Positions 39,071 to 46,072 of a DNA stretch of 51,434 bases are shown one piece after another. The stretch comes from Methanomassiliicoccales archaeon (lineage in GTDB: Archaea > Thermoplasmatota > Thermoplasmata > Methanomassiliicoccales > JACIVX01): NCBI GenBank assembly GCA_029907465.1, contig JARYLV010000011.1, positions 1 through 51,434 on the forward strand, read 5' to 3'. Within the stretch, counting starts at the first letter, position 1; the number at the start of each line of letters is the position of its first letter. A program made the position numbers and the translations under genes. The notes under the pieces are model-generated. The model worked only from the letters and a program-made list of their open reading frames with translations, did not search any database and was not told the DNA's origin.

Positions 39071-39166
39071 GCCACTGTGGCTTAGCGGTAGTGCCTCGTG
39101 GCACCGCCAAATAGCGACGCCTTGGTAAGGCGTAGGTCGAGGGTTCGAATCCCTCCAGTGGCTCCA
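39071..39166 (+). tRNA. tRNA-Thr (anticodon GGT) with an intron in the D arm; CCA encoded
   Basis: The acceptor stem GCCACTG (39071-39077) pairs with CAGTGGC (39156-39162). The T arm is GAGGG-TTCGAAT-CCCTC. The anticodon stem ACGCC/GGCGT has loop TTGGTAA, with anticodon GGT at 39124-39126. Discriminator T at 39163 is followed by CCA. The body is about 20 nt too long, and all the surplus lies between the D loop and the anticodon stem. Removing 39091-39109 leaves a normal 74-nt tRNA with D stem GCTT/TAGC. Confidence 0.93.
39091..39109 (+). other. Non-canonical intron of tRNA-Thr (D loop)
   Basis: A 19-nt insert. In the precursor, GCGG (39085-39088) pairs with CCGC (39104-39107) as the 4-bp central helix. 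TAG (39089-39091) and CAA (39108-39110) are the two 3-nt bulges. TGCC/GGCA with loop TCGT closes the intron hairpin. Cutting between the second and third bulge base gives 39091-39109. Removing 21 nt (39092-39112) would also leave a foldable D arm, so the exact ends are uncertain by 1-3 nt. Confidence 0.8.
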
Positions 39167-39244
39167 TTCTTACCTTGCTTCACGGGAATCAATAAATATT
39201 TATTCCCACGTGTTAAAATCATTACCTATATCAGGGGGTTGCGT

Positions 39245-40144
39245 TTGAAGCATCGGAGACTGCTCTATTCTCTTTATGGATTATGCGCTGTCGTAATCAT
39301 AGGTACTGTAGGGTTTACACTCTCGGAACCGACTGTCGATAATCCTATGGAAGCGCTTTACTTCACCCTCGTTACGATGACGACTGTCGGGTATGGGGAT
39401 ATCGTACCGACGACTGCCTTGAGTCGGGTCATCGCATCGATTGTCATGATCGGTGGCATCGGGGCGGGAATTACTGCTCTGCAATCGATTTTTGATACTG
39501 TCGTGAGTAGGAGTGTAAGGGAAGAATTGGGATTACCTGAAAGGAGGACAAAGATGAAAGATCATTACATAATTTGCGGATATGGGAATGTAGGTCGCCA
39601 GATTGCCGAACAATTGGGTGCAAAAGGTGAGAAATTTGTTATAATCGAGAAGGACAAAGAAAAAGTTACAGCAATGGTGGAGGAGGGAATACCCGTAATC
39701 GAGGGTGATGCTGTTTATGAGGAAGTCTTACAAAGAGCGAATATTGAAAGTGCAAAATCCCTCCTAACGACCATGAAGGACAGCGATAACGTGATGGTCG
39801 TCCTCACGGCGAAAATGTTGAATCCGAATCTGCACATTGTTTCAGAAGTTGAGGATTATCGAAATGCGATAAAGCTTAAGAAGGCAGGGGCTGACGAGGT
39901 GGTCCACTGTCACGAGATGGGTGCTCGGGTCATGGTCTGCAAAGCGAGACGCGTCGTTCTCGATCCTGTGTGTGGCTCGGAGATCGATCCTACAAGAAAG
40001 GTCTTGTCTTATGACTATGATGGTGAATCCTATCGTTTCTGTAGTGAAGAATGTCTCGAAGCGTTCAAGAAGAACCCTGTCCGATTTATAGAAATGCAGA
40101 GGACGCTCGACACGACCTGCCGGATCAAGTTCGGCCTGGACTAA
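39245..40144 (+). CDS. Potassium channel with RCK-N domain and C-terminal YHS domain
   Basis: A 299-residue two-helix potassium channel. Helix 1 is residues 5-25, the selectivity filter TVGYGD is at 47-52, and helix 2 is 58-87. An RCK/TrkA-N nucleotide-binding domain follows (ICGYGNVGRQIAEQL at 110-124, with the acidic end of strand 2 at IIEKD). Where an RCK-C domain is usual, the chain ends in a YHS-type metal-binding module: LDPVCGSEIDP at 239-249 and YRFCSEECLEAFKKNPVRF at 263-281, with Cys243, Cys266 and Cys270. The start is TTG at 39245 with GGGGG six nt upstream; the open frame runs back through tRNA-Thr, which cannot be coding. A TATA-like AATAAATATT is at 39191-39200. Confidence 0.9.
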   Translation: MKHRRLLYSLYGLCAVVIIGTVGFTLSEPTVDNPMEALYFTLVTMTTVGYGDIVPTTALSRVIASIVMIGGIGAGITALQSIFDTVVSRSVREELGLPERRTKMKDHYIICGYGNVGRQIAEQLGAKGEKFVIIEKDKEKVTAMVEEGIPVIEGDAVYEEVLQRANIESAKSLLTTMKDSDNVMVVLTAKMLNPNLHIVSEVEDYRNAIKLKKAGADEVVHCHEMGARVMVCKARRVVLDPVCGSEIDPTRKVLSYDYDGESYRFCSEECLEAFKKNPVRFIEMQRTLDTTCRIKFGLD

Positions 40145-45970: not shown

Positions 45971-46072
45971 TGGGCTCACCCGGATTCGAACCGGGGACCT
46001 ACGCCGTGTAAGGGCGTTGTCTGCCAGTTGACCTGATGACAGGCCAACTCATGACCACTAGACCATGAGCCC
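45971..46072 (-). tRNA. tRNA-Val (anticodon TAC) with an intron in the D arm
   Basis: On the minus strand the acceptor stem GGGCTCA (46072-46066) pairs with TGAGCCC. The T arm is CCCGG-TTCGAAT-CCGGG. The anticodon stem ACGCC/GGCGT has loop CTTACAC, with anticodon TAC at 46010-46008. The gene is 102 nt long. Removing 29 nt (46049-46021) leaves a 73-nt tRNA with D-stem pairs G10-C25, T11-A24 and C12-G23. CCA is not encoded. The transcription unit appears to be this gene alone. Confidence 0.95.
46021..46049 (-). other. Non-canonical intron of tRNA-Val (D arm, 23/24)
   Basis: A 29-nt intron with a full bulge-helix-bulge. The central helix GTCA (46055-46052) pairs with TGGC (46026-46023), including one T-G pair. 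The bulges are TGA (46051-46049) and AGA (46022-46020). The intron hairpin GTTGGCCTG/CAGGTCAAC has 9 bp with loop TCAT. Cutting after the second base of each bulge gives exactly 46049-46021 and restores the D stem. Confidence 0.9.

Follow-up and report, generated by a model that had tools for sequence, protein, structure and literature searches.

An interrupted tRNA-Thr(GGU) gene

The tRNA-Thr(GGU) gene at 39071-39166 on the plus strand of the window, the whole stretch of 51,434 nucleotides that was analysed, has a D-loop interrupted by additional sequence, which raises the question of whether the insert is an intron and, if so, where it is cut. The gene was matched by the Rfam tRNA model (RF00005) with 60.7 bits over 39071-39163, with an insertion of 22 positions placed in the D-loop, and the 3' CCA is encoded at 39164-39166. 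The anticodon is GGT and the acceptor, anticodon and T arms are all paired; together with the Rfam match this bears out a sequence-only reading of the locus, which had described an intact tRNA-Thr(GGU) with extra sequence in the D-arm. A run of the program ARAGORN did not report the gene.

The insert is very probably a 21-nt protein-spliced archaeal tRNA intron of the bulge-helix-bulge (BHB) type, located at position 20/21. In the precursor the insert and the D-loop would together form the bulge-helix-bulge. Both bulges would be cut, at GU^A and AA^A, by the splicing endonuclease (EndA), here a homodimeric alpha'2 enzyme, and exons 39071-39089 and 39111-39166 would then be ligated, most likely by RtcB. 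The ligated product would have a 7-nt D-loop, the same as that encoded by intron-less relatives. We infer the cleavage, the ligation and the exact cut sites from the comparisons given below.

The empty site in related genomes

A pattern search of 147 Methanomassiliicoccales genomes located tRNA-Thr(GGU) in 125; three incomplete genomes of family f1 (G003-G005) yielded none. Of the 125, 117 have a D-arm with the sequence GCTNAGNGGYATAGCG, and in the other 8, the source genome among them, the D-loop site is interrupted by 21-25 nt. The sequence-only reading had proposed a BHB intron in the D-loop and a comparison with relatives that might lack it, and the count of 117 empty and 8 occupied sites supports that interpretation. 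Many of the orthologous genes adjoin RqcH, as does the gene in the window, and beside RqcH in the relatives the D-arm consists of 16 nt, for example GCTTAGCGGTATAGCG. An insert at the same position with different letters was found in two genomes of the same genus. Matches of 73-78% in f1, f3, f5 and f6 were considered as additional Thr(GGU) introns and rejected, since those that were read proved to be Thr(CGU) genes.

The interrupted arm of the source genome is GCTTAGCGGT-AGTGCCTCGTGGCACCGCCAA-ATAGCG. The 5' exon (39071-39089, tRNA positions 1-20) agrees with the intron-less orthologues as far as the insert, and the 3' exon (39111-39166, from tRNA position 21) is identical or near-identical to them. 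Excision of the 21 nt at 39090-39110 yields exactly the D-arm of the 117 orthologues, while a 19-nt excision would leave two extra A's in the D-loop. Two placements of the insert give the same product because of a shared A; of these the symmetry of the BHB picks out the one cut at GU^A and AA^A, which lies between positions 20 and 21. By comparison with the empty site the insert is thus 21 nt long and the better junction is therefore 39089/39111, rather than the 39090/39110 or 39091/39113 that had been expected; the initial intron length of about 19 nt is accordingly revised to 21 nt. Junction 39091/39113 would leave a plausible D-arm, GCTTAGCGGTAGAGC, yet it matches no BHB and no relative. 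The intron had also been thought to be among the shortest of tRNA introns, which is not the case, as published lengths of archaeal tRNA introns extend from 11 to 129 nt, most medians being 12-25 nt (PMC4090602), and the intron of Thr(CGU) in the same genome is 16 nt.

The BHB motif and its register

All 8 of the Thr(GGU) inserts form the BHB hairpin. In the 21-nt register the outer helix is a D-stem of three pairs, in which the 5' strand at 39080-39082 pairs with 39113-39115, and it is separated from the central helix by U13.U22 and A14.C. The central helix is formed by AGCG (39084-39087) and CGCC (39105-39108), with three of the four pairs made in the source genome, where A14 is opposite C. 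The 5' bulge GU^A (39088-39090) would be cut at 39089/39090 and the 3' bulge AA^A (39109-39111) at 39110/39111, and the intron hairpin, GTGCC-TCGT-GGCAC, occupies 39091-39104. In five f3 relatives the corresponding central helix, AGAG/CTCT, is fully paired. The motif is imperfect because A14 is opposite C and a U.U mismatch interrupts the outer stem, and judged by this pairing it is relaxed in this genus.

The alternative that survives best, and which we consider unlikely, is that the same intron is cut at UA^G and CA^A, so that 19 nt (39091-39109) would be removed and the D-loop would be longer by two A's. This register corresponds to the motif given in the sequence-only reading, of which the GCGG/CCGC helix, the TAG and CAA bulges, the TGCC/GGCA stem and the 4-nt loop are all present. 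It has in its favour four Watson-Crick central pairs in the source genome and two 3-nt bulges. The two registers lie one base apart, have three central pairs in common and differ in the partner of c1, the base that immediately precedes the 3' strand of the central helix; this partner is G19 in the 19-nt register and the second intron base in the 21-nt register.

Covariation was examined in the Thr(GGU) and Thr(CGU) introns, 43 in all. Intron base 2 pairs with c1 as G-C in 30, A-U in 12 and G-U in 1, a two-sided covariation. The competing G19-c1 pair is possible in all 43 introns as G-C or G-U, but is never changed on both sides. Elsewhere in the central helix position 16 forms C-G, A-U or U-A with the 3' strand, G15 is paired in 43 of 43, and A14 is opposite U in 30 and opposite C or G in 13. 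The 19-nt register would also give a product unlike every intron-less orthologue, and its motif is not abutted by the outer helix. Applied to Thr(CGU), the 21-nt type of register restores GCTCAGCGGTAGAGCG, and this predicted empty site is the one read in those Thr(CGU) genes of family f2 that lack the intron. The covariation, and the fact that the D-arm of intron-less genes is recovered exactly, favour the 21-nt register, though not beyond doubt, and the cuts GU^A and AA^A are regarded as likely.

Standard folding energies, which ignore the enzyme, were -15.2 kcal/mol for an extended hairpin, -12.2 for the 19-nt BHB and -11.6 for the 21-nt BHB, placing the 19-nt register slightly below the 21-nt register. 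Minimum-energy folding was discarded as a register criterion, as it favours the non-BHB hairpin and does not decide. When the letters of the source insert were shuffled an equally good BHB was obtained in 585 of 100,000 trials; for the seven insert-bearing relatives the figure was 2 to 2,140 per 100,000, and these frequencies are not to be multiplied because the insert sequences are related.

Other tRNA introns of the source genome

The tRNA set of the genome was taken as its 40 Rfam tRNA matches, all of which were read, and so comprises those tRNAs that the Rfam model detects. About 20 of the 40 contain introns, a figure for which Phe, Cys and Lys were assessed by eye. Outside the anticodon loop there are six, in Thr(GGU), Thr(CGU), Ala(CGC), Leu(CAA), Val(UAC) and Lys(CUU). 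The introns of Thr(CGU) (L012, 16 nt) and Ala(CGC) (L009, 21 nt) are at position 20/21, and that of Leu(CAA) (L029, 25 nt) is in the D-loop. The tRNA-Val(UAC) gene is located in the window at 45971-46072 on the minus strand and contains a 29-nt BHB intron at 46049-46021, at about position 23/24, with the central helix GTCA/TGGC, bulges TG^A and AG^A and an inner stem of 9 bp. The Lys(CUU) gene (L217, G000:C25, about 150-195) is interrupted in the T-loop, at about 59/60, by a 22-nt BHB intron, in the context GAGGGTTCGAA-intron-TCCCTC, with the central helix TTCG/CGAA. Four-pair central helices are present in all five introns other than that of Thr(GGU), with Val in the 29-nt register; of the six motifs, that of Thr(GGU) departs most from the ideal. 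There is no support for the idea that the Thr(GGU) intron was copied from Thr(CGU), as no likeness was seen by eye beyond the common BHB positions. Both Thr(GGU) and tRNA-Val in the window were missed by ARAGORN, so genomes of this kind will look short of tRNAs.

These introns bear on the possibility that the mature tRNA keeps the insert, as a hairpin enlarging the D-loop. The hairpin is stable by itself, but the letters and length of the inserts are free to vary and the pairs and bulges of the BHB are kept, the insert is absent from 117 relatives, and BHB inserts occur in five other tRNAs, at sites including the T-loop and D-stem, at which a retained insert would disrupt the tRNA fold; we therefore consider retention very improbable. 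Still less credible is a reading in which the gene is decaying, or a pseudogene, with a chance insertion, or in which the assembly is at fault: the genome is known from a draft (1.72 Mb, 44 contigs, 96% complete), but all arms are intact, no second tRNA-Thr(GGU) is present among the 40 matches, and the differing inserts at the same position in two independent genomes of the same genus largely refute this reading.

The splicing endonuclease and ligase

The genome contains one EndA gene, encoding 352 amino acids in two fused domains, the single open frame being matched twice by TIGR00324, and a single EndA was likewise found in nearly every relative searched. The catalytic triad Y291/H299/K330 is in the C-terminal half and is conserved in 29 of 29 relatives. 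In the N-terminal half the tyrosine position is occupied by Phe in 22 of 29, and in the alignment of 29 the source protein has no histidine at the equivalent place. By its sequence the protein is of the fused homodimeric alpha'2 arrangement.

The best match among solved structures was 5x89, an EndA-like/EndA pair, which we take to be the Methanopyrus kandleri enzyme. Against M. jannaschii EndA (1a79), insertions in the catalytic half do not exceed one residue, and relative to 5x89 only a 3-residue linker difference was seen. No specificity loop (CSL or ASL) was evident in the comparison with 1a79 and 5x89, neither of which is a loop-bearing reference. Ferroplasma presumably belongs to the same phylum as the source archaeon. 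The homodimeric EndA of Ferroplasma cleaves minimal BHB substrates (PMC8707768), which makes cutting away from the anticodon loop plausible.

RtcB is present as two fragments (G000:C22:19956-20249 and G000:C32:10646-10795), one C-terminal and one N-terminal. The N-terminal piece stops at a contig end, and the C-terminal piece may reflect either an assembly break or an interrupted gene.

Distribution and origin

The Thr(CGU) intron at 20/21 was found in 38 genomes of Methanomassiliicoccales and also in a single genome from a different order of that class (G339:C53:59242-59298), indicating that the site is used outside Methanomassiliicoccales. The intron distribution was read on a tree of a single protein, EndA, whose deep branches should not be taken as settled. 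On this tree the Thr(GGU) intron is present in two separate groups, one in family f1 and one in f3, and empty Thr(GGU) sites are present in other f3 genomes and in f6 genomes. The occurrence in two separate clades suggests that the intron probably arose twice, two independent gains being the simplest reading; the alternative is one early gain followed by several losses.

Comparison with known archaeal introns

Introns at 20/21 are established in Archaea, mainly in Crenarchaeota and Nanoarchaeota (Marck and Grosjean 2003; Sugahara 2008; for a review see PMC4090602). The Thr(GGU) intron resembles these in its insertion point, 4-bp central helix, two 3-nt bulges and usual length, but it occurs in Methanomassiliicoccales, with an alpha'2 EndA as the only endonuclease detected. 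Its site and length, as predicted, are already known for archaeal introns, and the combination of host and enzyme is unusual.

The euryarchaeal BHB introns at 37/38, which are processed by alpha4 or alpha'2 EndA, have the same enzyme class and proposed mechanism. A 2014 review described the euryarchaeal BHB at the canonical position only, with introns in <10% of tRNA genes (PMC4090602), whereas here introns occur in about half of the tRNA genes, six of them at other positions. The multiple-intron tRNA genes of M. kandleri and Methanothermobacter are euryarchaeal exceptions with unusual introns, as is the case here (PMC4033280). The M. kandleri enzyme is (alpha-beta)2 while the present one is a single fused gene, yet its closest solved structure is 5x89. 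Several tRNAs occupied at one position with a patchy distribution among relatives also recall the intron transposition of Thermoproteales (Fujishima 2010, as cited in PMC4090602), but unlike that case the Thr(GGU) and Thr(CGU) introns of one genome are dissimilar by eye outside the BHB.

In reviews, (alpha-beta)2 or epsilon2 endonucleases are the enzymes associated with non-canonical tRNA introns. Alpha'2 enzymes are restricted to the canonical BHB according to one review (PMC4033280), and according to others also cut BHL motifs (PMC8707768; PMC6379350, the latter for full-length pre-tRNA). Non-canonical euryarchaeal introns are not unheard of, since they were included in the training set of tRNAscan-SE 2.0 (PMC8450103). 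A literature search for tRNA introns in Methanomassiliicoccales, covering part of the published intron surveys, gave nothing relevant. Contrary to the pattern in the reviews, Methanomassiliicoccales have many non-canonical introns alongside an alpha'2 enzyme. We tentatively put forward, as a possibility that we rate somewhat below even, that in this order a loop-less alpha'2 EndA efficiently removes imperfect BHB introns from the D-loop, D-stem and T-loop, that the architecture rule fails for the lineage, and that the Thr(GGU) intron was gained at least two times at the same site. The occurrence of Thr(GGU) with and without the intron among relatives makes both intron gain and the rule relating enzyme to position directly testable.

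Genomic setting

The window contains archaeal genes, among them RNA polymerase A', GatD, GatE and RqcH, and the closest named genome for RqcH is Methanomassiliicoccales archaeon LCB019-061, with 82% identity. The longest open frame downstream (window 39098-40144, plus strand) begins inside the tRNA-Thr(GGU) gene. By inspection its real start is probably near 39244, and the product is potassium-channel-like, with a TVGYGD motif recognised by eye.
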